A DNA stretch of 64,000 nt, taken from NCBI GenBank assembly GCA_016214905.1, contig JACRMQ010000006.1:62001-126000 (forward strand), read 5' to 3'. A program made the translations under genes and the position numbers. The notes below the pieces were generated by a model. The model had not been told where the DNA came from, ran no database searches, and saw nothing but the letters and a program-made list of their open reading frames with translations. Source of the DNA: Ignavibacteriales bacterium (lineage in GTDB: Bacteria; Bacteroidota; Ignavibacteria; UBA10030; SZUA-254). Of the stretch, positions 28,792 to 56,029 are shown piece after piece. Positions within the stretch are counted from its first letter, which is position 1. Each line of letters starts with the position of its first letter.

Positions 28792-29955
28792 ATGGAAAAT
28801 CAAGATAATATGCATGAAAATGACAGGGAGAGAGAACAGATACCAGTGAATCCACCTCAAAATGAAAATTTTGCCACACCTGCCGCAGAATCGCAAACAC
28901 CTTCCCGCCCACAACAAAGTCAACAACAGACGAGACAAAAACAGGAAGAACGGGGAAGGGAACGGCATAACAGATATCGCAGACAGCGTCCTCAGGGAAC
29001 AGATACAGAAAGGCAACAAGATACGGCGAGAGAGCTTTCGATTCTGATTCCATTGTTCAATGAAGAACAATCTCTGAGAGAACTCTATGATAAAATTAGA
29101 AATGCCTTAAACCGGAATCAAAGATTTGAAATCATCTTTGTTGATGATGGCAGTACTGATAACTCGATGCGCATACTTCATGATCTGCGACATAGGGATA
29201 GAAGGATAAAAATTATTCGCTTCAGAAGGAATTATGGAAAATCGGCAGCACTCAGCGTAGGATTTAATCATGCGAAGGGTGATATTATTATTACGATGGA
29301 TGCCGATTTGCAAGATGATCCAAATGAGATTCCGAATCTTGTCAACGAAATTAAAAAAGGATTCGACCTCGTTTCCGGGTGGAAGAAGAAACGGCGAGAC
29401 CCAATCACCAAAACGATTCCATCAAAGTTTTTCAATTTTGTTGTATCGAAGATGACCGGAATAAAACTTCACGATTTCAATTGCGGATTAAAAGCGTACA
29501 GAAAAGAAGTAGTCAAGGAAATTGAAATTTACGGAGAACTGCACCGTTATATCCCGGTTCTTGCACACTGGCGCGGATTTAAAATTGGTGAGATTGTTGT
29601 CCAACACTATGCAAGAAAATTTGGTAAAACAAAATACGGTCTCGGAAGATTTTGGAAAGGATTTCTTGATTTGGTGACCACACTATTCACCACGAGATAT
29701 CTGCAACGTCCGCTTCATTTCTTTGGATTATGGGGATTGGTCTTCTTCCTCATCGGTATCGGTATTGATGCATACCTTGTAGCTTTAAAATTTGTTGAAG
29801 GGATTGCTCTAAGCAACAGACCGCTTTTCTTAGGAGGAATTCTCTTAACGATAGTAGGTGTTCAAATTATTTCAATCGGATTATTGGGAGAGATGATTGC
29901 AAAAACCCGACCTGTAAACGAGAAAGAGTACTCCATAAAAGAATTTTGGAAATGA
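28792..29955 (+). CDS. Family 2 glycosyltransferase, polyprenyl-phosphate sugar transferase type (GtrB/DPM1-like)
   Basis: 387 residues. An unusual N-terminal extension of about 80 residues is very rich in Gln, Arg, Glu and Pro and probably disordered. The GT-A domain (about 82-310) shows LSILIPLFNEEQSL, IIFVDDGSTDNS and the metal-binding MDADLQDDP. Two membrane helices lie near the C-terminus (about 312-332 and 348-368). This is the layout of enzymes that load glucose or a similar sugar onto a polyprenyl phosphate at the inner face of the membrane for later transfer outside. First gene of a long plus-strand cluster. Confidence 0.88.
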   Translation: MENQDNMHENDREREQIPVNPPQNENFATPAAESQTPSRPQQSQQQTRQKQEERGRERHNRYRRQRPQGTDTERQQDTARELSILIPLFNEEQSLRELYDKIRNALNRNQRFEIIFVDDGSTDNSMRILHDLRHRDRRIKIIRFRRNYGKSAALSVGFNHAKGDIIITMDADLQDDPNEIPNLVNEIKKGFDLVSGWKKKRRDPITKTIPSKFFNFVVSKMTGIKLHDFNCGLKAYRKEVVKEIEIYGELHRYIPVLAHWRGFKIGEIVVQHYARKFGKTKYGLGRFWKGFLDLVTTLFTTRYLQRPLHFFGLWGLVFFLIGIGIDAYLVALKFVEGIALSNRPLFLGGILLTIVGVQIISIGLLGEMIAKTRPVNEKEYSIKEFWK

Positions 29956-31071: not shown

Positions 31072-31083
31072 ATTTTGGTGGAT

Positions 31084-33345
31084 ATGACGAAAGGCAAAAC
31101 TAAAACTTCGATTGGTATGCCTCATATTAAAGATTGGCACGCCGTAATTATAATTTGTTCACTTGTGGCGATATTCTTCCGTGATATTCTCCTTCAAAAG
31201 GCATTTTTCTGGGATGATTTTTTATATCAATATTATCCGTACCGAAATTTTTCCGCCGTATCGTTGTCGGGCGGCGAGTTGCCGCTGTGGAATCCTTACA
31301 CATTCAGCGGTTCTCCTTTCCAGGCAGACATTCAATCAGCAGTTTTTTATATACCCAATTTGATACTTACACTGTTTGTTGCCGGAGGAAAGTTGAATTT
31401 CTATTGGCTAGAAATTCAAATTATCATACACATGATGATTGCCGGAGTGAGTATTTATTTTTTGGCGAAGGAGTTCGGCCTCTTAAACTTTGCCGCTCTG
31501 TTCACCGGTGTGATTTTCTCATTGTCTGGATTCATGATCTCTCATGTAATCCACCATACAATCATCTGTCATATTGCATGGCTTCCTCTTATAATACTTC
31601 TTTTCCGTCGTGCCGTTCTACAACACTCTCTTATTACAATGATTTTAGGTGGAATGGTGCTCGGTAATGTGATACTCGCCGGTTCACCGCAGGTATCTTT
31701 ATACATTATGTTTTTTCTTCTCATCTATTTTATCTTCGAACTGTTGAATGGTTGGAAAGAAAACTCTATTTCTGGCTCGGTTAAGAAAAGTTCAATCGCA
31801 ATCGGATTTGTTATAATCGCTCTCGCCTTCACCGCAATACAGTTGTTACCGACGATTGAATTAGCTCCATTATCGCAGCGTGCTGAAATTACATATGAAA
31901 AATCACAGGAAGGCCAGCTTGTTTGGCAGCAGTTAATTACTTTCATCATTCCTAAATATTTTGGATCAAGCGGCGCTGAGGGTTCGACTTATTGGGGAAA
32001 TGGGGCATACTGGGTTTACTGGGAAACATGTTTTTATCTTGGTATTCCGGCATTTATTCTGATTATATTCTCGATGACCAGATTTCGGGCAAATCGTTAT
32101 ATCATTTTCTTTTTCAGCATAGGGATATTTTCTGTACTTTATGCATTGGGAGATAATTTTATTCTGCATAATTTCTTCTTTCATTATATACCGGGGTTCG
32201 ATAAGTTTCGCAGTGTGGGGCGCATTATGCTGATATCGGCTTTTAGTTTTTCGCTACTGGCTGGTTTTGGAATCCAGGCAATGTTCGATCTTATTAATCA
32301 ATCGCCTCAAAAATTTAAAAAGATTTTGATCGGGATAGGTGCCATCGTGATAATCCTATTTCTTCTAAGCCTGGCAGGGTGGATGCAAGGCGGTGTTGAC
32401 CGCAGAGTGGCAGATCAAATACATGCGAATACCGTTGAAGCATCGACTTCAATGTTGCTAATTTCGTTAACATCTGTTGGTTTAATATTTTTGATAAGCC
32501 GACGGTTTTCAGCGTTTATAATGTTAGGCGCTTTGTTGATCGTTCTATTTATTGATATCAATCTATTCGGTTTTAACCATAACAATGGAACGACTAATCC
32601 CGACGAATATTACCGCAGGACTGAAAGTTTGGTGCGATCGCTGCGAGAAGCGGGACAACAAGAATATTTCAGGGTCAATTCGCGCCGCGAGAATACCATG
32701 ATACTGGATAGAAACCAGGGAATGATTGACCGTATCTTTATGATGGAAGGATATACACCGCTCTCGCTTCAAAGAAATTATCCTATCGTGAAAGACTTCG
32801 ATCGTGCGTGCGATTTACTGAACGCAAAGTATCAGCTCGTTGTTGATGAATCACGCCGATTAATGGACCTCGTTCCTTCTAAAACATATTTACCTCGCGT
32901 TTTTTTCGTTTATGATTCAAAGATAATCACCAACGAAGATTCTGCCCGTGCGTATATGATTCGTGATGAATTCAATCCACGATCTACAGCAGTGTTTGAG
33001 CGAGATCCTCAATTTACAGTTGATGGAATTTCCGGAGATGGAAAGGCGGTTATCACATCATACTCTTTGAATAAAATTTCAGTTCAAGCAGAAACTCCGA
33101 AAAATGGATTATTAATTCTAAGTGAAATATTTTATCCAGGATGGAATGCATATATCGACGGTACGCTTACGCCAATTCATAGGGTTGATTGGTGTTTAAG
33201 AGCAATACCGGTGAAATCGGGGAGACATGAAATAGTTTTACGTTTTGAACCCGAGAGTTTTCGCATAGGTTCATTGATAACATTTTCAACGCTGTTGATA
33301 TCAGTAGTGTCTATTCTGTTTATCCAAATCAAGAAGAAAAAGTAA
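31084..33345 (+). CDS. Multi-spanning YfhO-family membrane protein
   Basis: About 753 residues from ATG 31084; TTG 31075 is also possible. A first membrane helix is followed by the periplasmic loop with the YfhO/GT-C hallmark FFWDDFLYQYYPYR and LPLWNPYTFSGSPF. About 10-12 further helices follow (to about residue 490), then a soluble C-terminal part ending in one more helix. The C-terminal block ILSEIFYPGWNAYIDG is typical of YfhO. By family knowledge these are GT-C-like proteins, in some Gram-positives needed to add sugars to lipoteichoic acid. Here it probably uses a polyprenyl-phosphate sugar made by the neighbouring GT2 enzymes (inference). It shares this layout with the gene at 48221. Confidence 0.86.
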   Translation: MTKGKTKTSIGMPHIKDWHAVIIICSLVAIFFRDILLQKAFFWDDFLYQYYPYRNFSAVSLSGGELPLWNPYTFSGSPFQADIQSAVFYIPNLILTLFVAGGKLNFYWLEIQIIIHMMIAGVSIYFLAKEFGLLNFAALFTGVIFSLSGFMISHVIHHTIICHIAWLPLIILLFRRAVLQHSLITMILGGMVLGNVILAGSPQVSLYIMFFLLIYFIFELLNGWKENSISGSVKKSSIAIGFVIIALAFTAIQLLPTIELAPLSQRAEITYEKSQEGQLVWQQLITFIIPKYFGSSGAEGSTYWGNGAYWVYWETCFYLGIPAFILIIFSMTRFRANRYIIFFFSIGIFSVLYALGDNFILHNFFFHYIPGFDKFRSVGRIMLISAFSFSLLAGFGIQAMFDLINQSPQKFKKILIGIGAIVIILFLLSLAGWMQGGVDRRVADQIHANTVEASTSMLLISLTSVGLIFLISRRFSAFIMLGALLIVLFIDINLFGFNHNNGTTNPDEYYRRTESLVRSLREAGQQEYFRVNSRRENTMILDRNQGMIDRIFMMEGYTPLSLQRNYPIVKDFDRACDLLNAKYQLVVDESRRLMDLVPSKTYLPRVFFVYDSKIITNEDSARAYMIRDEFNPRSTAVFERDPQFTVDGISGDGKAVITSYSLNKISVQAETPKNGLLILSEIFYPGWNAYIDGTLTPIHRVDWCLRAIPVKSGRHEIVLRFEPESFRIGSLITFSTLLISVVSILFIQIKKKK

Positions 33346-33369: not shown

Positions 33370-34290
33370 ATGAAATATTCAATTATCATCCCAGTTTATA
33401 ACGAAGAGGCGATTATCCCGGAGTTATCTCGCCGCTTGAAACTAATTCTTGATAGAATGAATATGGAGGCAGAAATAATATTTGTTGACGACTGCAGCGT
33501 CGATAAAACTTTTAGTATGATTGAATCACTTCATCAAACAGATTCCCGTTTTAAAGTAATTCGTCTTGCGCGCAATTTCGGACATCAGATAGCTATTACC
33601 GCCGGAATGGAATTCACGGAAGGAGAAGCGGTGATACTTATGGATGGAGATCTTCAAGATCCTCCTGAATTATTACCTGATTTGTTAGCAAAGTGGTCTG
33701 AAGGTTACGATGTAGTCTATACGATAAAAAGGAGCAGAAAAGAAAACGCCTTAAAATGGTTAGCATTCACGTCTTTTTACAGGGTGATGCATATATTTTC
33801 TTCGATATCAATTCCTATGGAAGCCGGTAATTTTTCTCTTATGGACCGGAAAGTTGTTGATGTAATACGATCCATGCCTGAAAGGAATCGATATATAAGC
33901 GGAATGCGTGCGTGGGCCGGTTTTAGGCAAACAGGCGTAGAATTCGATCGCGAAGCACGCTATGCTGGTAAACCGAAAATGTCTATTAGAAAACTTATTG
34001 ATCTCGCCTTGGATGGATTGATATCGTTTTCGAATGCGCCTCTGCGGCTTGCAATTTACGTGGGACTTGCTGTTGCGGTAATCTCATTCATCGGCGGCTT
34101 ATATGTTATCTATGAAAAATTATTCACTGATAAGGCAATCCTCGGTTGGGCATCTACAATTGTTGCAATCACTTTCATAGGCAGCATGGTTTTGCTTACG
34201 CTCGGAGTGATCGGAGAATATATCGGGCGTATTTACGATGAAGTAAAGCACCGCCCTATTTACATTGTGAAAGATAAAGTAGGTATTTGA
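33370..34290 (+). CDS. Family 2 glycosyltransferase, GtrB-like, with two C-terminal membrane helices
   Basis: 306 residues, the typical GtrB size. The GT-A domain shows YSIIIPVYNEEAIIPEL, IIFVDDCSVDKTFS and the metal site MDGDLQDPP, followed by the acceptor region with RNRYISGMRAWAGFRQ. Two helices at the end (about 225-247 and 262-285) anchor it in the membrane. It likely makes a polyprenyl-phosphate-linked sugar used by the YfhO-like protein just upstream or the GT39-like protein just downstream (inference). Confidence 0.9.
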   Translation: MKYSIIIPVYNEEAIIPELSRRLKLILDRMNMEAEIIFVDDCSVDKTFSMIESLHQTDSRFKVIRLARNFGHQIAITAGMEFTEGEAVILMDGDLQDPPELLPDLLAKWSEGYDVVYTIKRSRKENALKWLAFTSFYRVMHIFSSISIPMEAGNFSLMDRKVVDVIRSMPERNRYISGMRAWAGFRQTGVEFDREARYAGKPKMSIRKLIDLALDGLISFSNAPLRLAIYVGLAVAVISFIGGLYVIYEKLFTDKAILGWASTIVAITFIGSMVLLTLGVIGEYIGRIYDEVKHRPIYIVKDKVGI

Positions 34291-34353: not shown

Positions 34354-35955
34354 TTGGCAGCAGAGCATAATATCAATTACCTGAAGTGGGATGTTTTAAG
34401 AAAATACACTCCGTCTTGGATACGACTGAAGTATTTCCCATATCTCATCGGCATCATTTATATGATTTCGATAATTGTAATTGCCATGATCTGGCACAAG
34501 ATAGGTGATTACAGCGTCGAGACAGATTTTTACTGGACATACGCGCCTCAGGCGGCAAAATTATCTAGCGGTGAACTTACAATCGATGATTTTAAAGGTC
34601 CAGGATATACAATCCTTCTTTCCATCGTAAACTTGTTGACAGCGGATTATTTTATTGCCGGGATATTTATTTCCGCGATCTCTGCCGGAATAGTTTTAAT
34701 CATGTTGTACAAATTGCTTGCTAAATATTTCAGTTACGATGTTAGCTTGCTGGTCGTATTGATGACAATTGCCAATAAAATATTTGTGCAATACTCTTAC
34801 ACAGCGAGCACCGATATGGTATTTTATGCTTTAATAATGATTTCTATCTACGTATTTTGGTCCAATCAGAAATTGTCCGGAAACCGATTCGCGTTTTGCG
34901 GGGCGCTGAGCGGATTTACATATCTTGTGAGATACAATGGCGTATTTTTACTTTTCGTTTTTGTATTCTTAATTTTGCTAATGAATATATTCAATGAATC
35001 GATCAAAAAACGCTTATACTATATTTTATTTTTTATTTCAGGATATTTATCGGTGGTATTACCTTGGTCACTACTTTTGTATATCAATACCGGAGATATG
35101 TTTTATCAAAAGAATTACCTAAACATAGCATTTGAACTTTACGGTAAAAGGTATTTTTCATGGGATGATTGGTGGACACAAGAGTCTTACAAATATAAAT
35201 CGTTCGCAGGGGTCATCTTTCATGAACCGCTGACATTTTTCAAGGTTTCTTTAATGAATGTTTATTATCACCTGCTTGATGATCTTGTCTTCTTAATTGA
35301 TTACTGGATCGGATTGTTTTCTTTATTAGCAATCATCATGCTGAAAATATTCAAGCTCGAGAAAAAACAACTTGCAATAATTATTTTCGGAGTAGCTTAT
35401 TTTACTTCCTTGCTACCTGTTTTCTATGCAGAAAGATTTACACTCCCACTCATGTCAATATATTTCCTGCTTGCCGTTATCTTTTTCGCTTGGGTAGTGT
35501 CAAAGAAATTTAAGATTATGAATCATACAATTATTTTAGCAATAATTTCAATTTTACTCCTGCTATCTGCATTTTATACAGTATATTACAATGCTGGACA
35601 GATAGTTCTGGGACCCAAAGATGTTTTGAATATTTCCTCGGATTTTTATAAAAACTTTTCGTCAAGCGAAAAAGGAAAAGTTATCATTGCGAGGAAGCCC
35701 CAAATTGCCTATCAACTCCAGATGAAATTTGAGCAATTTCCAAATGTGACAGATATAAACCAATTGGTTTCAGAAATTCGAAAAAAGCGTGTAGATTATT
35801 TATATTTTAGTTCTATTGAAGCAAAAATGAGACCTCAATTTAAAAAAATTTTCAGAGGTGATGCAGCTCCCCCCGGATTTGAATTGGTTGCGATATCGAA
35901 GAATCCTGTCGCCCTGTTATACAAAATTAATTTGGATAGACTTTTAATAGAATGA
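34354..35955 (+). CDS. GT39/ArnT-like membrane glycosyltransferase
   Basis: 533 residues. About ten membrane helices start at about residue 28. The first periplasmic loop has the acidic pattern VETDFYWTYAP and DDFKGPGYTILL seen in GT-C enzymes of the GT39/ArnT type, where the acidic residues act in catalysis. A C-terminal soluble part of about 100 residues follows the last helix. The start is TTG with no clear ribosome site, and the real start could be a little downstream. It is coupled by a four-base overlap to the next gene. Probable role: transfer of a polyprenyl-phosphate sugar to a glycan or lipid on the outer side of the inner membrane. Confidence 0.78.
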   Translation: MAAEHNINYLKWDVLRKYTPSWIRLKYFPYLIGIIYMISIIVIAMIWHKIGDYSVETDFYWTYAPQAAKLSSGELTIDDFKGPGYTILLSIVNLLTADYFIAGIFISAISAGIVLIMLYKLLAKYFSYDVSLLVVLMTIANKIFVQYSYTASTDMVFYALIMISIYVFWSNQKLSGNRFAFCGALSGFTYLVRYNGVFLLFVFVFLILLMNIFNESIKKRLYYILFFISGYLSVVLPWSLLLYINTGDMFYQKNYLNIAFELYGKRYFSWDDWWTQESYKYKSFAGVIFHEPLTFFKVSLMNVYYHLLDDLVFLIDYWIGLFSLLAIIMLKIFKLEKKQLAIIIFGVAYFTSLLPVFYAERFTLPLMSIYFLLAVIFFAWVVSKKFKIMNHTIILAIISILLLLSAFYTVYYNAGQIVLGPKDVLNISSDFYKNFSSSEKGKVIIARKPQIAYQLQMKFEQFPNVTDINQLVSEIRKKRVDYLYFSSIEAKMRPQFKKIFRGDAAPPGFELVAISKNPVALLYKINLDRLLIE

Positions 35956-37868
35956 TTGGTATTAACTCAAATATTTCAACCAGTGATCAATCCGAAAAAG
36001 TTTTGGGATTATTCATATTGGGCATAGTGATTATCTATGGTTTTGCTTCATTTTTCCCCGATTCATTCATGTGGGGAATCAATCATCTGGCATTTCTTCC
36101 AGTTTCGATGCGGATAGTATTTCTCTTGATTGCATTGTCCATCGGATTCCTTTTAATATCAAGAAATATTCAATTTTTTATCGATGATAAAATTCATTTT
36201 CTTTCTTATTCTCTCATAGTTCGCATTTTAATCCTGTCTCTGATTGCAATTTCAGGAACAGCTATATTTTATTCTTACCGAATCCGTACCGAGATGTACG
36301 GAGATACCTTGACTCTTTTAAGTTTGTTATCAGAAAAACGATATGCGCTTGCGGATTTGTTCGACCTTAGTGATAAAGAGCCGTTAACTCGTATGATCCA
36401 TCAATCTCTGTCATCAAAATTTGGTGTGGATCAAAAATCGATGTTCCAAATTGTGAGTGCCGTTAGCGGGGGAATATTTTTAGTTTTAATAACTGTCTTC
36501 ATAGTGAACAGGAATAATACAAGATCATGGAAATTGCTCGCACTAATCGTTTTCTTTTTTGCCGGTGCCAACCAATTGTTCTTTGGACATGTGGAAGATT
36601 ATACTCTTGTTTATTTGGCTATCACCGTGTTCCTTATTCTTGCCTGGAATTTATTTGATGGAAAAAAAGTGTTTGGTTGGATGATCATTGTATTCCTTAT
36701 CGGATCAAGACTTCATATCGAAATGATTTTATTGCTGCCGGCGCTACTCTATGCGGGTGCTTTTTTGGTGGAACAAAGGCAAGGGAAATTGAACCGTTGG
36801 TTGAAGCCGCGGAATATTATGTTTCTTATATTAGCTTCCATGGTTGGCTCATTCTTTGTCTATCTTTTTTATTTTGATGCGTATCGGTATTCAGTTGGTG
36901 ACCAGAAAGAAATAATGACGAAAATATTTCTTCCGGTTGTAAATCCGCTACAGCAACCGCATTCGTATTCTCTTATTTCTTTAAATCATTTCTCTGATGT
37001 TATTCAGCAATTATTTTTTATCGCGTCACCTGCGCTCGTGTTATTGACGATGGCCATCGTTGGCTATGGTAAAAATATTCGGTGGAAAGAACCCCGTTTA
37101 ATATTTTCGCTCATTGCTCTGTTTTATTTTATCATATTTAATTTCACGATCAATCCGATGCTGTCGATGCCGCGCGATTGGGATATGTTGTCTCCCACTG
37201 CGGCAGCTATTAATTTTGCTTCTATTGCAATAACTTTTCAACTATTTAAAAATTCAAGAATCAGATTCTATTATTCGAAAATAATTGGTGCCGTTGGTGC
37301 TGCTGCAATATTATCCGGTACATTATTTATCATAAACGCAGATGAACAAATGTCGGCTTTACGTCTGGAAGGTGTTGGTAAGTGGGTTTTCAAAAGTTAT
37401 TATAACGGTTCTACCTATATTATAAATATGGGGGAGAAGATGATGGGTGATTCACAGAAACAAATCGAACATAGAGAACAAACGATTAAAGATTTGTTGC
37501 CGTACACTTCTAAACCTGACCTGAATATCAGCATGTTATATTATAAACTGGCTGTTCTTTATTATCAACAACGCGATTTTGAAAATTCCGGTAATCGTAG
37601 TGCCGATGCTCTTCAGTATGATTCACAAAATGCTTCGGCGCTTAAAACTTTGGGATTATCTAAGATACAACTGAAACAATTCGATAAAGCAATTAATCTT
37701 TTTTCTTTTTATAATAAGAATATCAATAATCGGGATATTAACGATGCGCAGGGAATGTTACTGGAAGAAAGTGCCCGATTATTGGCAGTTATGAGTTTAA
37801 AGGAGGATAAAAAAACGGAAATTCAAAATAAATTAGACGAAATATATCGTCTGATATTGGTAAAATGA
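35952..37868 (+). CDS. Membrane protein with C-terminal TPR-like tail (paralogue 1 of 3)
   Basis: 638 residues: about 11-12 membrane helices (to about 465) followed by a soluble tail with TPR-like helices (about 520-620, YYKLAVLYYQQRDFENSGN and ALKTLGLSKIQLKQFDKA). Characteristic motifs are LFFGHVEDYTLVY near residue 215 and MPRDWDMLSP near residue 408. The same two motifs recur in the proteins at 52087 and 54062, so these are three members of one family. I cannot name the family; the layout suggests a GT-C-like transferase. It overlaps the preceding gene by four bases. Confidence 0.75.
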   Translation: MIGINSNISTSDQSEKVLGLFILGIVIIYGFASFFPDSFMWGINHLAFLPVSMRIVFLLIALSIGFLLISRNIQFFIDDKIHFLSYSLIVRILILSLIAISGTAIFYSYRIRTEMYGDTLTLLSLLSEKRYALADLFDLSDKEPLTRMIHQSLSSKFGVDQKSMFQIVSAVSGGIFLVLITVFIVNRNNTRSWKLLALIVFFFAGANQLFFGHVEDYTLVYLAITVFLILAWNLFDGKKVFGWMIIVFLIGSRLHIEMILLLPALLYAGAFLVEQRQGKLNRWLKPRNIMFLILASMVGSFFVYLFYFDAYRYSVGDQKEIMTKIFLPVVNPLQQPHSYSLISLNHFSDVIQQLFFIASPALVLLTMAIVGYGKNIRWKEPRLIFSLIALFYFIIFNFTINPMLSMPRDWDMLSPTAAAINFASIAITFQLFKNSRIRFYYSKIIGAVGAAAILSGTLFIINADEQMSALRLEGVGKWVFKSYYNGSTYIINMGEKMMGDSQKQIEHREQTIKDLLPYTSKPDLNISMLYYKLAVLYYQQRDFENSGNRSADALQYDSQNASALKTLGLSKIQLKQFDKAINLFSFYNKNINNRDINDAQGMLLEESARLLAVMSLKEDKKTEIQNKLDEIYRLILVK

Positions 37869-45771: not shown

Positions 45772-46701
45772 TCATTTTACCAATAACATTTTTTTGACAT
45801 CGGTAAATTTATCGGTTTGTAATCGATAAAAATAAAAACCGGATGGCAGGTCTTCTCCATTGAATGTGATTTCTTTATACCCTGCCGATTGATATTCATT
45901 AACAATAGTTTTAATCTCCTCACCTAAAACATTGAATATTTTAAAGGATACCCTTGTATCTTCCGGTATTTGATATTTTATTTTTGTTATTGGATTGAAC
46001 GGGTTTGGATAGTTTTGTTGAAGACGAAATGTGGTTGGGGTTGTGTTCTCAATTGTTTTTACAGATGTATTTATTATACCGGAAATAACTATATCATCAA
46101 AAGCAGTTAAATCGGTTTCTCCATTAGCACCAATCTCTATGTATCCATCCTGTCTCCAATCAGGTGAAATGATAACGTTATGAATGAGCTCATTGTTGAC
46201 ATAGATTTTTGCACTATCACCAGAGTCAACTATCTTTATTGTATTCATACTATCGCGAAGATACTGCCCGACAAACTTTCTTTCTTGTCGGAGAATAGAG
46301 CCGTTATGATATTGGTGATCGTATCCAGACCAAACAGCTTCATCATAATCTAAATATTCTGCTGAAGAACCTGCCGATCCAATAAGAACTGCTTTCCCAC
46401 TATAAGCATTAGTTGATCCCCGCCATAGAAAAACCCACCACCCTTGGGCTTTAAATTCGTATGTCCCAGTACCGTTTGTAAAGCCATCGTTGTAATAAAA
46501 AACAAAACCTGGTGTAGTGCGTTTAAATTGTCCATCAACAACCTCAAAAACACCACCACCTCGGTAATCTTGTGTATGATGCCAGTTACCTGATGATGTA
46601 ACACTATCAAAGTGGTCTTCAAATGTAAACAAGCTTTGACTGAGTGAAAGACTCGCAAAAAGAAAAAGGATACCGAATATACAAAAAATCCGGATTACCA
46701 T
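45772..46701 (-). CDS. Secreted LamG-like beta-sandwich protein with type IX sorting domain
   Basis: 309 residues from ATG 46701, which has AGGAG five bases upstream and begins a clean signal peptide (MVIRIFCIFGILFLFASLSLS); the frame is open further up to 46779. The main domain (about 25-205) is a beta-sandwich of concanavalin/LamG style: WHHTQDYRGGG, GTGTYEFKAQG, YSGKAVLIG, NGSILRQE, DGYIEIGANG. The C-terminal 85 residues are a type IX sorting domain (NYPNPFNPITKIKY; SGFYFYRL). The middle domain is clearly related to that of the divergent lipoprotein at 47131. It is probably a surface glycan-binding protein (inference). Confidence 0.85.
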   Translation of the reverse strand: MVIRIFCIFGILFLFASLSLSQSLFTFEDHFDSVTSSGNWHHTQDYRGGGVFEVVDGQFKRTTPGFVFYYNDGFTNGTGTYEFKAQGWWVFLWRGSTNAYSGKAVLIGSAGSSAEYLDYDEAVWSGYDHQYHNGSILRQERKFVGQYLRDSMNTIKIVDSGDSAKIYVNNELIHNVIISPDWRQDGYIEIGANGETDLTAFDDIVISGIINTSVKTIENTTPTTFRLQQNYPNPFNPITKIKYQIPEDTRVSFKIFNVLGEEIKTIVNEYQSAGYKEITFNGEDLPSGFYFYRLQTDKFTDVKKMLLVK

Positions 46702-47130
46702 ATTAGCTCCTATGAATGATTTTATAAAGTTTATAAGTTGTTTTCCCAAAATGATAAATCTCCTAATAAAAGTACTCAATTTAAACGATTATGTCAATAG
46801 GGAAATTCCTGATAAGATCTTTAGAAATACTAAGATATACAAAATCTACCATGCAAGCGCACTCGATAATCAGATGTAACACAAGTGCAGAGAAAGAGGA
46901 TTTAAGCAAACGTTTTTGTATTGACTATTATTGAATAAATCAGTAATTTATTCTTGAATTAACTGATTAAAACATTGAGCTAACTGAAAGATCGATTGGA
47001 AGGGTGATTATTTTTAATCGAACCAAAATAATTTCGAATGGTTTTGATTATATCAGATCAAATACTTTTCTTTTCAAACAATCATTTAGAAATCTCAAAA
47101 CATAATATATTTTTTATCCAAGGAGGATCT
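46702..47130. other. Divergent intergenic region of about 430 bases
   Basis: Lies between two divergently transcribed genes with related products, so it should hold both promoters. It is AT-rich with no gene. TCGATT/AATCGA pairs occur around 46991-47020, but I cannot single out a promoter or operator. Confidence 0.55.
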
Positions 47131-48158: not shown

Positions 48159-48220
48159 TTTCCCTTTTTTTCCGTATATTCATTCCTGTCAATGGAAAAC
48201 AATAACGATTGAAAGTCTAT

Positions 48221-50779
48221 ATGTCAACCAAATCTAAATTATCAAGCACAAAAAGTTCGTTTAATTTAAAACCGACATGGTTCGATAATCTTTCTTCTGT
48301 GAAAAAAGATATATTCAGTATAGCTGTTCTTTTTGTACTGCTGTATATTCTTTTCTTCAAGATTATTACATCTGATATGATGTTCGCAGATTCTGGTGAT
48401 ACTGCTTCGGTCCGTAGCTGGGATAAGGCGATGGAACATATCAGAACTACAGAAAAAGTAGACCCGTTCTGGATACCGTACATCTTCAGTGGTTTGCCGG
48501 TTGCAAGCGCAATGATTTTTTCCCGCGATCTCAACTATCCCGAAATCATTTTACTATTTATTGGTAAACCTCTTTTCTTCGGTGGTGAGATGTCGTGGTT
48601 TATTCTTCACTATTTCCTAATGGGTATATTCACCTACTTCCTTGCGCGTCAATTGAAATTTCTCCACCTTCCATCCCTATTCGCTGCGATAACTATGATG
48701 CTGAATCCGTACGCAATCGGTTTGGCACAATCGGGACACGGATCTAAGATGATGACACTGACTTTCGTACCATTGGTGTTTCTTTTAGCTGTTTCGTTAT
48801 TTCAGCGTAGAGATATCCTAAGTCTTGGTTTGCTCGGTGCTGCCACCGGTACAATGCTTCTGAATAAACATCCCCAGATTGCATTATACGGATTACTTTT
48901 AATTGGGATTTATTTTCTATACGAATCCATACTCGACATTAAAACACAACCAGTGATTGTTGCAAAAAGATTCGCCTTATTTGCAGCCGCTATGGCGATC
49001 GGTTTCGCGATATTCACGTATCAATATTTCCCCACCGAGCAGTACAAACCACATTCAATCCGAGGCAGTTTAACTTATGAATATGCCACAAGCTGGTCTA
49101 ACCATCCGTTAGAGATGCTCACATTTATTCACCCGTCATTTTTCGGTTTCTCAAATAATTATATCACGGAGATCCAGGGGGCAGAGCAGGCTTTGCCGCT
49201 TTACTGGGGTTGGATGCCGTTTGTGGAAGGACCTGTTTATGTCGGCATTATACCTGCGTTGCTTATGGTGTTCGCGTTTATATATAAGCGAAACCGCCTC
49301 ACATGGTTCTTGACAATTTTCACCATTTTCATTTTATTCCTATCGTTCGGAAATCATTTGGGTCTTATCTACAATCTATTTTTTGATTATCTACCTTACT
49401 TCAATTCGTTACGCGCGCCTGCCATGATTCTATCGCTGGTTTCACTGACGTGCGGGTTGATTGCGGCTTTCGGTGTTTCATTTTTAATGGAATTGCACCA
49501 GCGTGGCAAAGAAATCGATCTTGAAAAAATAAATAAAAATATTCTTAAGTGGATAGCAATCATCGGTGCTGTGATCGTATTCTCACTAGTGGGTAAATCT
49601 TTTCTCCAAAGTTTTCTATCGGATTTTATGTTCTCCAAAGAAGGGGAGTTGAGGGAATTTATCCAGCAAGCCGGACAACAAGGTGCTCTGCAATATCAAA
49701 CACTCCTTAAAGAAAAACGTTTTGATGTATTTTGGGGTGACATGATAAAAATGTTTGTCCTCTCAGGTGCATTGCTGGGATTAATTTATTTTTATATCAA
49801 GGGAAGGAAATCGCCGACACTTGCCGCCGCCGGAATGATTTTACTTGTGACTGTTGATCTGGCAGCGGTGGATGTTAAATTTGTCAATCCCCGTCCGAGA
49901 ACATCCTTCGAAGAACCACAAGCAGACGCGACTGTACAGTATCTGAATAATGATTCCTCGCTTTATAGGATATTCCCTCTCGGACGCGATGGGTCCGGTC
50001 AGGATTTATTTCAAAATAATTCTTTCATGTATCATCAACTATCATCCATTGGGGGTTACAGCCCGGCGAAAATCAGAATATATCAAGATCTGATTGAGTC
50101 AGCCCTTTATAACGGAGCCGATCCGCAATTTCCAATCAATATGAACGTTGTAAATATGCTTAACGTAAAATACCTTATAGCGCCCGGTCAATTACCCGCA
50201 AATAAGTTCCAGATGGTAAACTTCGATCAGACGAAGAAAATGTTAACTTACATAAATCCGGGTTGCTTACCGAGAGCTTGGTTTGTTGATACCGCGATTG
50301 TCGCATCATCCAAAAATGCAGTTTTTCTCCATCTTAACTCACCCGATTGGAATCCACACAAAACAGCAATTCTTGAAACTGCGCTTCCATCCGCAATCTT
50401 AAAATCTGATTCAACGAGGGTATCTGACATTCAATATCAATCCCAAAAACTGAGCATGAAAGTATTTACTGCTCAAAGCGCACTGTTGGTGGTGAGCGAA
50501 ATATATTATCCTCCGGGGTGGAAAGCATTTATTGACGGGAATACTGTGGAGATTTATAAAACGAATTATGTTTTGCGTTCACTTATTATACCTGCAGGTG
50601 AGCACACAGTAGAGTTCCGGTTCGATGCTTCTATTTATGAAACCGGTTTAGCAATTACGAATGCCGGTTGGGGCATCAGCCTGTTGTTGGTTTTAGTAGG
50701 GTTGATCCAGATTCCGGCAATTAAAAAGCGAATCGGATTAGGAAAGAAAATACAGATTACCGATAATAAATCTGTTTGA
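48221..50779 (+). CDS. Large YfhO-family multi-spanning membrane protein
   Basis: 852 residues from ATG 48221; the frame also opens at TTG 48209. The first helix (about 32-52) is followed by the periplasmic loop MFADSGDTASVRSWDKAM and FWIPYIFSGLPVASAM. Some 12 further helices reach about residue 570, then a soluble C-terminal domain (RIFPLGRDGSGQDLFQN; VVSEIYYPPGWKAFIDG) and a last helix. This order matches the YfhO family and the protein at 31084. It probably is a GT-C-type transferase using lipid-linked sugars. Such large YfhO-like proteins are common in Bacteroidota but uncharacterised there. It stands alone, with a terminator shared with rpsU. Confidence 0.86.
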   Translation: MSTKSKLSSTKSSFNLKPTWFDNLSSVKKDIFSIAVLFVLLYILFFKIITSDMMFADSGDTASVRSWDKAMEHIRTTEKVDPFWIPYIFSGLPVASAMIFSRDLNYPEIILLFIGKPLFFGGEMSWFILHYFLMGIFTYFLARQLKFLHLPSLFAAITMMLNPYAIGLAQSGHGSKMMTLTFVPLVFLLAVSLFQRRDILSLGLLGAATGTMLLNKHPQIALYGLLLIGIYFLYESILDIKTQPVIVAKRFALFAAAMAIGFAIFTYQYFPTEQYKPHSIRGSLTYEYATSWSNHPLEMLTFIHPSFFGFSNNYITEIQGAEQALPLYWGWMPFVEGPVYVGIIPALLMVFAFIYKRNRLTWFLTIFTIFILFLSFGNHLGLIYNLFFDYLPYFNSLRAPAMILSLVSLTCGLIAAFGVSFLMELHQRGKEIDLEKINKNILKWIAIIGAVIVFSLVGKSFLQSFLSDFMFSKEGELREFIQQAGQQGALQYQTLLKEKRFDVFWGDMIKMFVLSGALLGLIYFYIKGRKSPTLAAAGMILLVTVDLAAVDVKFVNPRPRTSFEEPQADATVQYLNNDSSLYRIFPLGRDGSGQDLFQNNSFMYHQLSSIGGYSPAKIRIYQDLIESALYNGADPQFPINMNVVNMLNVKYLIAPGQLPANKFQMVNFDQTKKMLTYINPGCLPRAWFVDTAIVASSKNAVFLHLNSPDWNPHKTAILETALPSAILKSDSTRVSDIQYQSQKLSMKVFTAQSALLVVSEIYYPPGWKAFIDGNTVEIYKTNYVLRSLIIPAGEHTVEFRFDASIYETGLAITNAGWGISLLLVLVGLIQIPAIKKRIGLGKKIQITDNKSV

Positions 50780-51087: not shown

Positions 51088-51480
51088 TTACGATACAATT
51101 TCGCTTTCTACCGGTTCTTCCGGCTTTAAATTTTCGATCAGCCGCCGCTGACCCGCGATTTCGAACGACACTACAATTGCTTGATTGCCGTCCGACATTT
51201 TTATTTTAGATAGAACTTTTCCTACTTCATTCCATTCTTGATGAAATATCGATTCACCAATATGGAATGATTGCCATGGATTGTACACCCTTGCTTGTGA
51301 AGGCTCGAGTTCAGCTTGCGCTTTATCAACAGACTCTTCTTCTAACAAAGCTGCATGATGACACCGTGTACAACGGAACCAAGTTTTACCTTGAATTCCT
51401 TCCATTGTACCAACCTGCACCATCCGTGTTTCTTTGTTGCAATATGCACAGAAACGTCCAGAATATTTTGTACGTCCCAT
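51088..51480 (-). CDS. Zinc-ribbon protein with CarD-like/Tudor-type C-terminal domain
   Basis: 130 residues. The N-terminal zinc ribbon has C11-x2-C14 (FCAYCNKET) and a second C-x2-C (FRCTRCHHA). After an acidic linker, residues about 65-120 read YNPWQSFHIGESIFHQEW, then GKVLSKIKM and VVSFEIAGQRRLIENL. This resembles the small SH3/Tudor-like fold of CarD-type RNA-polymerase-binding proteins (pattern H-x-xx-x-G-V...V-F-x-G-x-R-x-L). A transcription or translation role is inferred from this and the link to rpsU. I do not recognise an exact family. Confidence 0.72.
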   Translation of the reverse strand: MGRTKYSGRFCAYCNKETRMVQVGTMEGIQGKTWFRCTRCHHAALLEEESVDKAQAELEPSQARVYNPWQSFHIGESIFHQEWNEVGKVLSKIKMSDGNQAIVVSFEIAGQRRLIENLKPEEPVESEIVS

Positions 51481-52086: not shown

Positions 52087-54048
52087 TTATTTTTTCCCTC
52101 TCGATAAATATTCATACATTTTATCTCTTAACGCGCGCAACCGCTTATCGTTCGGATTATTTAAAAGATATGTGTCGTAATTCGTAATTGCACGCTGTAA
52201 ATCTCCTACCCGTGTTGCACAATCGCCTGCATACAGAAACAAAAGCGGCTCACGCATTCCTAGGTCAATAGCCGCTCTGAAATGTTTATCAGCCGTTGCA
52301 AAATCATTTTTTGCTGAATACAAGATTCCTAAATTCGCGTGCGCGCGCGAACTATTGCCATTCATTTGGATGGCACGCTCGTTAAACTCGATTGCTTTCA
52401 GTGTATCACCGCGTGTTGCGTATTCAACACCTAAATTGGAATAGATACCCGGATCCGGACTGTTTGCTTCAGCAGCACGTTTTAGTTGATAGAAATATTT
52501 TTCCTTCTCACCTAATTTCCTGTAAACGTCTGAAATGTTTCCGATGATGCGCGGATTTGCCGAATCAATCACCATGTAAAGTTCATAGTAGCTCCTTGCA
52601 TCGGCATATCGTTGGTTATCAAAAAAATAATTTGCCAAAGCTTCACTATGTACCAACTGAGCTGTTTTTGATAACAACAGTGAACTATTAAGCATTTGCA
52701 TTCTGGTTAAGTGCTTCTCAGCTGATGCATTGACTCCGATCCATGGAGCAGTATGCAAAATTGACACTAGTGCAATTAGAAAAAGAATGTTTCTACGTAA
52801 TTGGATCTCGAGGGGCTGCAATAATAAATATATTGGTAGCACAATGAGTGGGACAAAAAAACTTGCAAATAGATCCCAATCTCTAGCAAGACCTAGTGCA
52901 CTGTTTATAACCCAAGTGAAAAATATTCCGCAGAAAACGGCAGTCAATAAAAACAAAAATATCGGATTATTCCATCTTTTTTCCGGTGATAGCGCCGGGA
53001 TCAGAATAATTGTTAGGAATAAACCAAAAGGCGCAACCAGCATGATGGCGTTAAACCAATCTAGCAAATGAGCGAAAGAAAACATCGCATATGGAAAGTT
53101 TCCGCCTTCTGCAATAAAAGGTTGAAGGAAATCGACCGACCCTGATCTCAGAGGGCGGATTATATTCATTAAATTGAATCCGATAAAATACATCATCGAG
53201 ATCCCGATAATACCAATCCCGGCGATCAATCCGATGGCGATAATCCGTTTTTTCTTCCATTTAAAGATAAGCAGTAATAGTAAGCTCGGCAGAAATACTA
53301 ACGATCCAAAGTGTAAAAGCACCATCAAGATGAAACATAAAATCGGAACAATTATCGAAATCCGTTTTTCTAACGCTAACCATCCGGTGATTAAATATGT
53401 CGTTGTAGCCACATATAACAAAACATAATTTTCTACATATCCGAAGAAAAATTGGCTTCCTCCCGCAAAAGCAAAGAAACATCCCAATAATACCCGCTCC
53501 ACAAACGGTTGCTGAGATGATCTTAAGCTCCAAAACACTAAAGCTAAAAAACAAAGGAATGCGACAATATCAATTGTATAATAGACGGTGTAAGGATTTG
53601 GTGCACTTTCAAACGGATGAAGTTTCATCGCCAAACGATAAATCCAGAACATAAGCGGTTGATTGCGGAAACTTAATGTGATCTCATCACCCATAATACC
53701 GCTCGGCACGGAGCGAAGTAGTACTGCACCGTCTCCGAGAAGATGAAGCTTAGCCGGAAAGAAGTAGATTGCGATAATAATTATTCCAGATGTCAAACCG
53801 AAAATTACAATCCATGGCAATCTTCTTATAGCTCGTGCGAATCGGTCTATGTTATTAATTATCGATGATTGAATCTTAGGAATTGAGCAAAGCAAAACCA
53901 GCCCGATTGCAGACACAGCGATCCATTTTTCGTAAAATCCCCAAAAATGAAATCCCCAATTCGCATGAGATGGATAGATCGCCGCCCATCCATGCAGCGC
54001 CACAATAATGAAGATCGAAATTAAAATATAAAGAGTCGTTCTCGGCAT
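52087..54048 (-). CDS. Membrane protein with C-terminal TPR repeats (paralogue 2 of 3)
   Basis: 653 residues. About 11-12 membrane helices (to about residue 450) are followed by four or five TPR units (about 465-645; for example GIYSNLGVEYATRGDTLKAI and RAHANLGILYSAKNDFATA). Motifs FFFGYVENYVLLY (near residue 195) and LARDWDLFASFF (near residue 383) are shared with the next gene upstream and with 35952-37868. The family is unnamed to me; a GT-C-like transferase or assembly protein of surface glycans is plausible. It lies 13 bases after its paralogue in the same direction, evidently a tandem duplicate. Confidence 0.78.
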   Translation of the reverse strand: MPRTTLYILISIFIIVALHGWAAIYPSHANWGFHFWGFYEKWIAVSAIGLVLLCSIPKIQSSIINNIDRFARAIRRLPWIVIFGLTSGIIIIAIYFFPAKLHLLGDGAVLLRSVPSGIMGDEITLSFRNQPLMFWIYRLAMKLHPFESAPNPYTVYYTIDIVAFLCFLALVFWSLRSSQQPFVERVLLGCFFAFAGGSQFFFGYVENYVLLYVATTTYLITGWLALEKRISIIVPILCFILMVLLHFGSLVFLPSLLLLLIFKWKKKRIIAIGLIAGIGIIGISMMYFIGFNLMNIIRPLRSGSVDFLQPFIAEGGNFPYAMFSFAHLLDWFNAIMLVAPFGLFLTIILIPALSPEKRWNNPIFLFLLTAVFCGIFFTWVINSALGLARDWDLFASFFVPLIVLPIYLLLQPLEIQLRRNILFLIALVSILHTAPWIGVNASAEKHLTRMQMLNSSLLLSKTAQLVHSEALANYFFDNQRYADARSYYELYMVIDSANPRIIGNISDVYRKLGEKEKYFYQLKRAAEANSPDPGIYSNLGVEYATRGDTLKAIEFNERAIQMNGNSSRAHANLGILYSAKNDFATADKHFRAAIDLGMREPLLFLYAGDCATRVGDLQRAITNYDTYLLNNPNDKRLRALRDKMYEYLSRGKK

Positions 54049-54061
54049 CGAATTAATTATC

Positions 54062-56029
54062 TTATTTTTGGTTTGTAAAATTCTTTTTCAATGTACTAAA
54101 ATTTATCAATTTATTTGAAATTGCGGTATCATTCGGTATCAAGGATAAATATTTCGTATAGATGCTGAACGCTTTACCATTGTTCCCCTTTTCTTCATAC
54201 GCCTCGCCAAGAGCACGAAGAAGTTTCGGATCTGACTTCCCGAGTTTGAGTGCCGTTTCAATATGATTGATAGCATCATCCATTTTTCTTGTTTGAAGAT
54301 ACATTAATCCTAAGTTTGCGTGTCCGACCGCATAATCCGGATAAAGTGTTATAGTTGTTTCTGCCAGAGCAATTGCCTCATCAATCTTATCATGTCTGAA
54401 TAGCTCCACCGATAAGTTGACTGATACTTTCGGATCGCGGTTCCCTAATTCTACCGATCTCTTCAGCATTCTGTATACATTTTCGTTCTCATTGAGTTTA
54501 CGGTACACATCCGAAAGATTCGCGATGATGCGTGGATTGGAACTGTCGATGATCGTATATCTTTCATACCATTGTTTTGCCTTCGCGTAATCTTTCCTTT
54601 CCCAAAATATATTTGCTAACCGGTCATAGTATAACTGTTGCGCAAACGGGCTGAGTAATGCAGGTTGAGCCATAATCTCCACGCTACTGACGTGTTTATC
54701 CGGGTTCGAATTAATTCCGACTCTGGCTGCAATATGTAGAATAGATATAATCGTTACAATGGTAATTACTTGTTTGCGTATGTTCCCGTTGAAATAGTTA
54801 ATAAAGAGGAACCATGAAAGTATTATCAGTGGGATAAAGAAACTTGCCATTAGATCCCAATCTCGAAACATACCTAAAGCTGGCGTCATTATGAATGTAA
54901 AAATGAGTCCACAAATGGTTGCAGGTAATAGAAAGAGAAGCTCTTTATTACCCTGCCAAATTTGCTTGTAATTTGCTGTCAAGATAATTATTGCCGGAAT
55001 TAATCCCAATGGTACAACCAGAAAATTTAAATTTATCCACTCAACAAAATGCGTCAGCGAAAATAGAGTGTATGGGATTCCGTTGGCTGGTTGTGAGAAT
55101 GGCAAAAAATCATATTTGAATGCTTCCTGAATCCGGATTATTAACCTATCCACGCCGTAGTCACTCAGGTAAATTAATAACAGAAATAATGCAGGGAGGA
55201 GGAGGGTGAGAACAATAGAAGTCCGCTTGTTGTTTTGCCACGAAAGAATCAGAAGCACTATCACGCTTGGGAGGTATATCATGGCACCCAGATGCAATCC
55301 AACAATTCCAAGGAAAAATAATACAGGAAAGATGATCGAAATTCTTTTTTGCAGCATAAATAATGCTGTTATTACATAACCGGCTGTAAATGCGTAAAGC
55401 AGCGCGTAGTTTTCTATATATCCGAAGAAAAACTGCACACCACCACCCGCAAATAAAAACAGGCCGCTGAGTAGTTTTTCAGTATTGGATATTTTCTCCT
55501 TCGACAGAAATAAATAAACGATCCCGAGGAAAATAATCCCGGCGAGAATATCTGTCAAGATATAAATATTCTGTAATCCATCGATACCAATGAAAGCCAG
55601 TACGCTTTTCATGCCGTGCAGAGATCCAAGAACTAGAGGTTGATTTCTGAAGTTTGCCGATTCAAGTGGATTGGATGGAAGTTCGCTTGTAGTAAGAAGT
55701 ATTAACTTACTGTCGCCAAGTAATAACCCACGTGCGGGAAATTGAAATGACAAAAAGATTAACAAAGTTACGCAGCAAAGAAAAATAACAAGAGACGGTA
55801 AAGATGAGAATAGTGTACTCACTCGTTCAAAAACCCTTATCCAAAAACGCAAAACCGATGGAATGAAGAATGTTAAGGCAATTAACAAAACAATCGCCGA
55901 TGTGGTGATGTCATAATATGCGAATGATTGAAATCCCCACTTCATATATGATGGGTTGCCAGCACCCCAAACGTGGAGTAGGATAAGAATAAAACAAAAA
56001 ATAAAAATTATTTTTCCAAGAGTATTCAT
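54062..56029 (-). CDS. Membrane protein with C-terminal TPR repeats (paralogue 3 of 3)
   Basis: 655 residues, with the same plan as its neighbour: about 12 helices, then TPR units (about 465-640; HANLGLMYLQTRKMDDAINHI and LRALGEAYEEKGNNGKA). Shared motifs are GGVQFFFGYIENYALLY and MFRDWDLMASFF. Within the TPR part the two neighbours share the phrase YDRLANIFWERKDYAKAK versus LANYFFDNQRYADARS. The N-termini match too (VWGAGNPSYMKWGF versus GWAAIYPSHANWGF). It is first in the two-gene minus-strand unit and divergent from the GT4 gene at 56288. Confidence 0.78.
   Translation of the reverse strand: MNTLGKIIFIFCFILILLHVWGAGNPSYMKWGFQSFAYYDITTSAIVLLIALTFFIPSVLRFWIRVFERVSTLFSSLPSLVIFLCCVTLLIFLSFQFPARGLLLGDSKLILLTTSELPSNPLESANFRNQPLVLGSLHGMKSVLAFIGIDGLQNIYILTDILAGIIFLGIVYLFLSKEKISNTEKLLSGLFLFAGGGVQFFFGYIENYALLYAFTAGYVITALFMLQKRISIIFPVLFFLGIVGLHLGAMIYLPSVIVLLILSWQNNKRTSIVLTLLLPALFLLLIYLSDYGVDRLIIRIQEAFKYDFLPFSQPANGIPYTLFSLTHFVEWINLNFLVVPLGLIPAIIILTANYKQIWQGNKELLFLLPATICGLIFTFIMTPALGMFRDWDLMASFFIPLIILSWFLFINYFNGNIRKQVITIVTIISILHIAARVGINSNPDKHVSSVEIMAQPALLSPFAQQLYYDRLANIFWERKDYAKAKQWYERYTIIDSSNPRIIANLSDVYRKLNENENVYRMLKRSVELGNRDPKVSVNLSVELFRHDKIDEAIALAETTITLYPDYAVGHANLGLMYLQTRKMDDAINHIETALKLGKSDPKLLRALGEAYEEKGNNGKAFSIYTKYLSLIPNDTAISNKLINFSTLKKNFTNQK

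Follow-up and report, generated by a model that had tools for sequence, protein, structure and literature searches.

The window analysed here is a 64,000-nucleotide stretch of contig JACRMQ010000006.1 (positions 62,001 to 126,000) from the Ignavibacteriales bacterium assembly GCA_016214905.1, and it carries three genes, designated W1, W2 and W3, whose products belong to an unnamed family of membrane proteins of predicted GT-C glycosyltransferase type with a C-terminal tetratricopeptide repeat (TPR) tail. W1 (35952-37868, + strand) encodes 638 residues, W2 (52087-54048, - strand) 653 and W3 (54062-56029, - strand) 655; W2 and W3 form a tandem pair. The three open reading frames (ORFs) lie exactly where a first-pass annotation of the sequence had placed them, and its claim that they are paralogues is borne out by pairwise matches between W2 and W3 (35% identity, 638 columns, E = 1e-122) and between W1 and W3 (24% identity, 386 columns, E = 4e-20). 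All three also contain the two motifs named there, FFG.[VI]E[ND]Y.L.Y and RDWD[LM], which start at residues 210 and 408 in W1 and at residues 201 and 389 in W2 and W3. The genome (3.3 Mb, 10 contigs) encodes two further copies, at C7:304141 and C5:196561, and a search of it with the membrane domain only returned five members again. The significant matches of W1-W3 in Pfam and NCBIfam fall on TPRs (the NCBIfam scan covered the window proteins only), and a PHROGs scan of W1 and W3 gave none for W1 and two weak matches for W3, in the TPR part.

Relatives were collected by scanning a genome contig collection for the conserved peptide FFG-[YH]-[VI]-E-[NDT]-Y, a pattern that biases the conservation of FFG-x-[VI]-E-x-Y in the resulting set; 263 stretches were found, of which 190 encode relatives and 80 were kept. 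Five fragments were dropped from these 80 loci; one alignment holds 72 sequences, its references ending one residue short, and the later ones hold 74 of the 80 plus the three window proteins (77 members). Some start codons (e.g. in L030 and L031) are probably placed too far downstream. A motif-independent set of 18 members was drawn from profile searches or from the window's own genome (35 proteins minus 17 copies). According to record titles and NCBI labels, the kept loci fall under eight phylum labels: Ignavibacteriota, Chlorobiota (one metagenome-assembled genome of the same genus as the window), Bacteroidota (Aquimarina and Kapaibacterium), Zixiibacteriota, Gemmatimonadota, Latescibacterota, Chloroflexota and Auribacterota. 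Matches occur in 15 of 15 genomes of the organism's own taxonomic family (1-7 per genome, some of them fragments), the protein family is present in 32 of 98 genomes of its order, and in a sample of its phylum matches were found in at least 4 of 198 genomes, the own genome included and one match being a fragment; this last figure is a lower bound, at most eight candidates per genome having been scored. Tandem arrays are common, with at least 21 extra members near the matches in 16 of the 80 loci. The family was also considered as the missing O-oligosaccharyltransferase of Bacteroidota, an unlikely assignment given the matches in at least four of the sampled phylum genomes.

AlphaFold2 modelled W3 with a predicted local distance difference test score (pLDDT) of 95.4 and a predicted template modelling score (pTM) of 0.91, and residues 1-472 of W1 with a pLDDT of 91.2 and a pTM of 0.92. 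The first-pass annotation had described membrane proteins of about 12 helices; the membrane character stood but the count did not, since 13 helices were counted in the models, two extra N-terminal ones followed by an 11-helix domain. The first two are regarded as extra because structure matches start at W1 residue 72-94 nearly always (one starts at 47). Whole-protein searches by profile against PDB sequences and by structure were swamped by TPRs and were repeated with the membrane domain alone, whose profile found no match among PDB sequences at E ≤ 10. In the structure comparison of the W1 membrane domain, the best 47 rows (Z 17.3-7.3) comprise 43 GT-C glycosyltransferase entries, namely oligosaccharyltransferase (OST), Pmt, ArnT, AglB, PglB, ALG12/9/3/6, AftA/B/D, Emb, DPY19 and PimE (complexes holding one of them included), and four glycosylphosphatidylinositol (GPI) transamidase entries, three of which are chain U, which we take to be the GT-C-like PIG-U; row 48 is ferroportin at Z 4.3. 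ArnT matched the W1 membrane domain at Z 16.3 and the full-length W3 model at Z 17.0 over 336 residues. The GT-C type proposed in the first pass is thus supported, and for the family as a whole the models support a GT-C fold of the subclass A type.

In the helices of the W3 model all motifs (G-D, FFGYVENY, H246, Y-S-H-D and RDWD) and the tail lie on one face of the membrane. Lys and Arg together are denser in the loops of the opposite face (0.23) than in the motif loops (0.08), a difference seen in 77 of 77 sequences, and the motif face is therefore predicted to be periplasmic; the limits of helices and loops for the topology and conservation counts were set by hand from the W3 model. By this positive-inside rule the motifs do not fall on different faces, all of them being in predicted outer loops in every one of the 77 members.

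The conserved residues are spread over these loops. W1-W3 also have in common two motifs that had gone unremarked in the first pass: the first outer loop carries G-D, and the large loop carries Y-x3-S-x2-H-x2-[DE]. In W1 (+ strand) the five sites are G117-D118 in the first outer loop, at the acidic position of GT-C enzymes (36300-36305), FFGHVEDY (residues 210-217) in the second (36579-36602), H255 in the third, placed by profile alignments (36714-36716), YSLISLNHFSD (339-349) in the large loop (36966-36998) and RDWDM (408-412) in the fifth (37173-37187). On the - strand, motif searches located FFGYVENY (201-208; 53425-53448) and RDWDL (389-393; 52870-52884) in W2, and FFGYIENY (201-208; 55406-55429) and RDWDL (389-393; 54851-54865) in W3, whose G105-D106 in the first outer loop (55712-55717) was recognized by conservation. 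In W3 numbering, seven residues are invariant in all 77 members (G105, F201, E206, Y208, H327, W391 and D392), so that Glu and Tyr of the first motif and Trp and the second Asp of RDWD, whose conservation the first-pass annotation had left to be mapped, are complete; D106 (76), D390 (74), H246, S324 and the Asp at 330 (73 each) and Y320 (71) are nearly so. In the motif-independent set G105, D106, E206, Y208, H327, D390 and W391 are present in 18 of 18, and D392 and H246 in 17. Two features expected of GT-C enzymes were found: the first outer loop, which follows core helix 1, has an acidic residue (D106), and a late outer loop has a conserved basic one (position 389, Arg in 63 and Lys in 10 of 77).

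The claim of a soluble TPR tail in all three proteins held strongly for two of them. The tails of W2 (residues 461-653, the start taken from the W3 model; 52090-52668, - strand) and W3 (461-655, from its model; 54065-54649, - strand) match TPR_2 at 1e-11 and 3.6e-16, whereas that of W1 (37377-37865, + strand) is weak and degenerate, with a TPR_1 score of 19.3 bits against a cut-off of 27.8. Among the 80 sequences 11 members, all from Chloroflexota, are tailless, with 0-5 residues past the last helix; ten of these end in a stop codon and are certain, and the eleventh (L097) runs off its contig. Because they form one clade (Shimodaira-Hasegawa-like approximate likelihood ratio test, SH-aLRT, 100) nested among TPR-bearing members of a midpoint-rooted tree, the sequences suggest that this clade lost its tail, and since ten members end without one, the core can stand alone.

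To place the family among known GT-C enzymes, its profile was compared by hhalign with those of other families. In global mode the best match was to bacterial TMEM260-like proteins (short PF11028, GT117; 21 sequences, at least three of which start late in the alignment), with E = 1.5e-8, a probability of 94.6 and 371 columns, followed by PMT_2 (15 sequences, 6.2e-7) and the long PF11028 proteins (1.5e-5); the controls (Wzx, ABC2, YfhO and reversed alignments) gave 0.024 or worse in both modes, and YfhO (nine sequences), tried as kin, remained unsupported at 0.22-0.47. The homology to TMEM260-like proteins extends over the whole membrane domain globally (64 columns locally), and the motifs are in register: D106 falls on the Asp of D-S-G-E (loop 1), E206-x-Y208 on E-V-Y (loop 2), H246 on the His of N-H (loop 3), P254 on a Pro and RDWD on H-D-I-D (loop 5). 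Human TMEM260 also has TPRs, according to the available text of PMC11292533. In contrast to the bacterial PF11028 proteins compared, the W1-W3 family lacks D-S-G-E and H-P-x-G-Y-P and has FFG, W-G, R-D-W-D and two extra N-terminal helices. PF11028 gave no match in W1-W3 at E ≤ 1; when the 77 members were scanned tail-free against Pfam at the same threshold only scattered weak matches appeared, the best being this model in one member at 0.0018. Two true PF11028 proteins are encoded in the same genome. All 80 genomes sampled from the phylum encode PF11028 proteins, against 1 of 14 control genomes (examples are C7:1151368 and C1:133469 of G000, and L217 and L218), and the term DUF2723 found no mention in the literature searched. 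The O-oligosaccharyltransferase of Tannerella forsythia is called unknown in the available text of PMC8729774, and PF11028 proteins are possible candidates for it.

PMT_2/ArnT enzymes (PF13231) share with the family the fold and the global profile match given above, and in their alignment the family His (H246 in W3, H255 in W1) meets the third-loop Lys/Arg; in ArnT, K203 of the third loop forms a salt bridge with D158 of the second (available text of PMC7801869). They differ in that PF13231 has no match in W1-W3 or among the 77 members. The PMT_2 and TMEM260-like profiles match each other at 1.3e-19, far closer than either is to the W1-W3 family, which is why the profiles lead us to read the latter as a distant outgroup to both. 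Given the architecture, the first candidate for membership was TMTC1-4 (GT105), which likewise combine a GT-C core with C-terminal TPRs on the outer side; such an array was found in W2 and W3, its side resting on predicted topology, and is weak in W1. Full-length prokaryotic TMTC homologues have been published (PMC7801869, as far as its text is available). TMTC membership was rejected nonetheless: the family has neither the DD motif (loop 1 has G-D) nor DUF1736 (PF08409), which found no match in the own genome or, at E ≤ 1, in the 77 members, and a bacterial TMTC profile built from ten proteins (drawn from five genomes carrying both families, some sequences being cut) matched it at only E = 0.57 locally and 0.77 globally, versus 2.5e-20 for PMT_2 and 1.2e-6 for TMEM260-like proteins. 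By Pfam models the family is outside GT117, GT105 and PMT_2, and resembles them in fold and motif placement.

In W2 and W3, core and tail disagree in their affinities. Their counterparts were compared in a locus of the same genus (L044, equivalent to G001) and in one of another genus (L077, equivalent to G006). The W3 core is 73% identical to that of L077 and 47% to that of L044 (L044-L077, 48%), while its tail is 52% identical to the former and 72% to the latter (48%); the same comparisons for W2 give 81, 59 and 60% for the core and 64, 77 and 62% for the tail. The switch in site patterns falls at residue 485 of W3 and residue 492 of W2, and the first 30 residues of W2 side with G001 as well (12 sites vs 2), so that site patterns, third positions and trees together delimit the putative exchanged cores at about residues 1-484 of W3 (54578-56029, - strand) and 31-491 of W2 (52576-53958, - strand). 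In trees of 18 rows, with a bootstrap of 100 for each grouping, the cores join W3 to L077 and W2 to L077_1 (100/100) and the tails join W3 to L044 and W2 to L044_1 (100/99); alternative groupings were rejected by the approximately unbiased (AU) test (p = 6.8e-5, 1.4e-3, 1.1e-3 and 4.3e-4), p-values that do not refer to a blind hypothesis, as the tests were made after the conflict had been noticed. Third-position identity between the window and G006 is 49 and 54% in the cores vs 36-41% in four other genes; with G001 it is 36 and 34% in the cores vs 56-66% in five of six other gene pairs. The tails show 51 and 52% with G001 and 34 and 45% with G006, and two genes beyond W2 fit the species pattern (87 and 92% to G001; 43 and 65% to G006). 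The sixth pair is the 51091 gene (51088-51480), a 130-residue ORF with no Pfam family at E ≤ 0.001 that is kept near W2-type genes; its identity to the same-genus relative is 92%, and at third positions 88%, which greatly exceeds the values of the other genes in the comparison. Because the cores group with the other genus and the tails with the same genus, it appears that the catalytic cores of W2 and W3 were transferred from one lineage to another and that neither tail went with them. An assembly chimera could also give such a mosaic, but by our estimate it would take three or more joins inside 4 kb, at corresponding points of two genes. Strong conflict between core and tail was seen in 3 of 54 proteins, all from this one event, and modularity was therefore rejected as a general rule.

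The neighbourhood of W1 contains genes for two GT2 enzymes, GT9, YfhO, PMT_2, GT4, UDP-GlcNAc 2-epimerase, dTDP-sugar isomerase and a Wzx-type protein. One GT2 of polyprenyl-phosphate-sugar synthase type (33370-34290, + strand) is encoded two genes before W1 and resembles PgfS (2.7e-80; 269.9 bits, below the cut-off of 500); the other GT2 of synthase type (28792-29955, + strand) is ArnC-like (2.2e-62; 210.9 bits, below the cut-off of 529). Between the former and W1 is a GT-C gene of the separate PMT_2 family (34354-35955, + strand; PF13231, 8.3e-10). In four of the five W1-type loci a synthase-type gene of the same cluster is the next glycosyltransferase gene ahead of the W1 orthologue, adjoining it in L027, L028 and L031 and past a 135-residue ORF in L030; in these four, YfhO precedes the synthase gene and no PMT_2 gene intervenes. 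From this synteny the 33370-34290 product is the probable donor maker for W1. W2 and W3 lie near genes for an ABC-2 permease and a Wzt-type ATPase. Of the W2/W3-type loci, L044 and L077 hold pairs and L103 a W2-type gene, and these loci retain the 51091-type gene, YfhO and a 56288-type GT4. The large YfhO-type membrane proteins (31075-33345 and 48209-50779) are kept near W1 and W2/W3 orthologues, and the glycan region also encodes a protein that has a sorting tail for type IX secretion (45772-46779).

The C5 and C7 copies, inspected by eye over 10.5 and 13 kb, are seemingly outside surface-glycan clusters. The C7 copy is preceded by an ABC permease and a short ORF, and the C5 copy by a vWA/YfbK-type gene, with apparent glycogen genes farther away. 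The vWA/YfbK-type gene precedes the C5-type copy in the own genome and G001, is two ORFs upstream in L060 and was not seen in G004 and G012. Together with a sigma-factor-like gene (assigned by eye), this arrangement upstream of the C5-type paralogue was observed in three of five genomes examined (L252 3054-5729, L249 3313-6003 and L060 4067-6694), a carboxypeptidase-regulatory domain being matched by Pfam in L060 only. It is possible that this vWA/YfbK protein is the acceptor.

With a rough probability of 0.7, we propose that W1-W3 are periplasmic inner-membrane GT-C transferases of a polyprenyl-phosphate-linked sugar, equipped with a docking TPR tail. We infer catalysis, donor and acceptor, single-residue roles and a W2-W3 pairing along the following lines. 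A GT2 synthase would charge polyprenyl phosphate with a sugar, a flippase (a candidate step) would turn the lipid-linked sugar over to the periplasmic side, and there the GT-C core would move the sugar onto an acceptor gripped by the TPR tail. The Asp of G-D may bind the acceptor and/or a metal, E-x-Y may bind the acceptor, the third-loop His and the Arg/Lys of R-D-W-D may bind the donor's lipid phosphate, and the rim of the active site may be lined by Y-S-H-D. The C-terminal TPR superhelix would dock a partner in the periplasm, the likeliest candidate being the acceptor or a carrier of it. The synthase encoded two genes before W1 probably supplies this enzyme. For W2 and W3 we think a pairing probable because both cores appear to have been exchanged together and the tails were not; such joint movement suggests that the two cores belong together, either as a pair or by catalysing two steps on a single glycan, and that each tail is matched to something host-specific.

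Several results weigh against the proposal. The first outer loop holds one conserved Asp instead of D-D, D-E or D-x-D, and Foldseek alone was weak, with ArnT first and a best E of 0.013. Locally, hhalign matches dropped to 3.6e-6 for TMEM260-like proteins (64 columns), 3.4e-5 for PMT_2 and 5.1e-5 for the long PF11028 proteins; the initial profile comparisons were weaker still (0.0018, 8.1e-5 and 2.7e-5), and the Wzx and ABC2 controls comprised just three sequences each. Core and tail usually co-evolve (r = 0.91 over 1431 pairs from 54 members). As for the donor, L029 lacks both the upstream synthase and the W1 gene cluster, and no neighbour in the W2/W3-type loci clusters with the synthase.

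The nature of the acceptor is where the alternatives lie closest. A protein is given about even odds and a glycan is a serious if lesser prospect. The first-pass annotation had suggested that the TPR tail recruits a protein for glycosylation, which is plausible: a substrate-recruiting role is proposed for the TPRs of TMTC and TMEM260, and the TPR-tailed GT-C enzymes with known acceptors modify protein (both from the available text of PMC11292533), and the W2/W3 tails were kept as the cores were swapped. Against it stand the polysaccharide-type cluster and degenerate tail of W1 and the ten tailless Chloroflexota members. The competing view, a substantial possibility short of even odds, is that the sugar goes to a surface polysaccharide or lipid-linked glycan, as in ArnT or in three-component decoration, with the tail docking polysaccharide machinery. 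The nucleotide-sugar and glycosyltransferase genes around W1, its weak tail and the export genes near W2/W3 all favour this view, and three-component decoration by a GT-C enzyme has a precedent that includes ABC-exported O-antigens (available text of PMC11127046). The W1 cluster shares with such systems (GtrA/GtrB/Gtr; GT136) a synthase-type gene near a GT-C gene, but no flippase for the donor was assigned among the W1 neighbours, the W1-W3 family carries a TPR tail and not a carbohydrate-binding one, and the C5 and C7 copies seem to be set apart from surface-glycan clusters.

Two further explanations concern the chemistry itself. PglL-type ligases may carry TPRs, and loci of the same kind as those of W1-W3 would suit a lipid-diphosphate-dependent polymerase or ligase of the GT-CB class (Wzy, O-antigen ligase or PglL); this is improbable, as the structure matches listed comprise enzymes of OST/PMT/ArnT/ALG/Emb/Aft kind together with GPI transamidase and PimE, with no GT-CB entry among them (a family missing from the list could still match), and Wzy_C found no match at E ≤ 1 in any of the 77 members. 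A GT-C scaffold or sensor that has lost catalysis, which the many copies per genome would allow, is if anything harder to credit, the acidic and aromatic loop residues being invariant or nearly so across phyla. Under the preferred transferase reading, a more far-reaching scenario, which we regard as speculative and rather unlikely, is that the family performs bacterial protein glycosylation parallel to that of animal TMTC/TMEM260: the TPR arm would recruit a folded protein, W2 and W3 would be an obligate pair like Pmt1-Pmt2, and lineages would change sugar or linkage by joint core swaps between genera while keeping their own gripping tails.

The GT-C fold and the plan of GT-C core plus TPRs are already known, but the titles and abstract openings of the literature searched gave no description of the family, of the residues that mark it, of its place as an outgroup or of the swap of both cores. 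With members under eight phylum labels of NCBI, this unnamed family is added to the GT-C group and is distinguished by its residues (G-D, E-x-Y, His, Y-S-H-D and R-D-W-D). A GT-C core joined to a TPR arm, as in human TMTC and TMEM260, is thereby seen in another family, one with a core that gives no detectable match to TMTC. That TPR tails set acceptor choice has been proposed for the human enzymes (PMC11292533, in its available text), and the natural core/tail chimeras of the W2-W3 tandem pair would offer a direct test of whether they do so.

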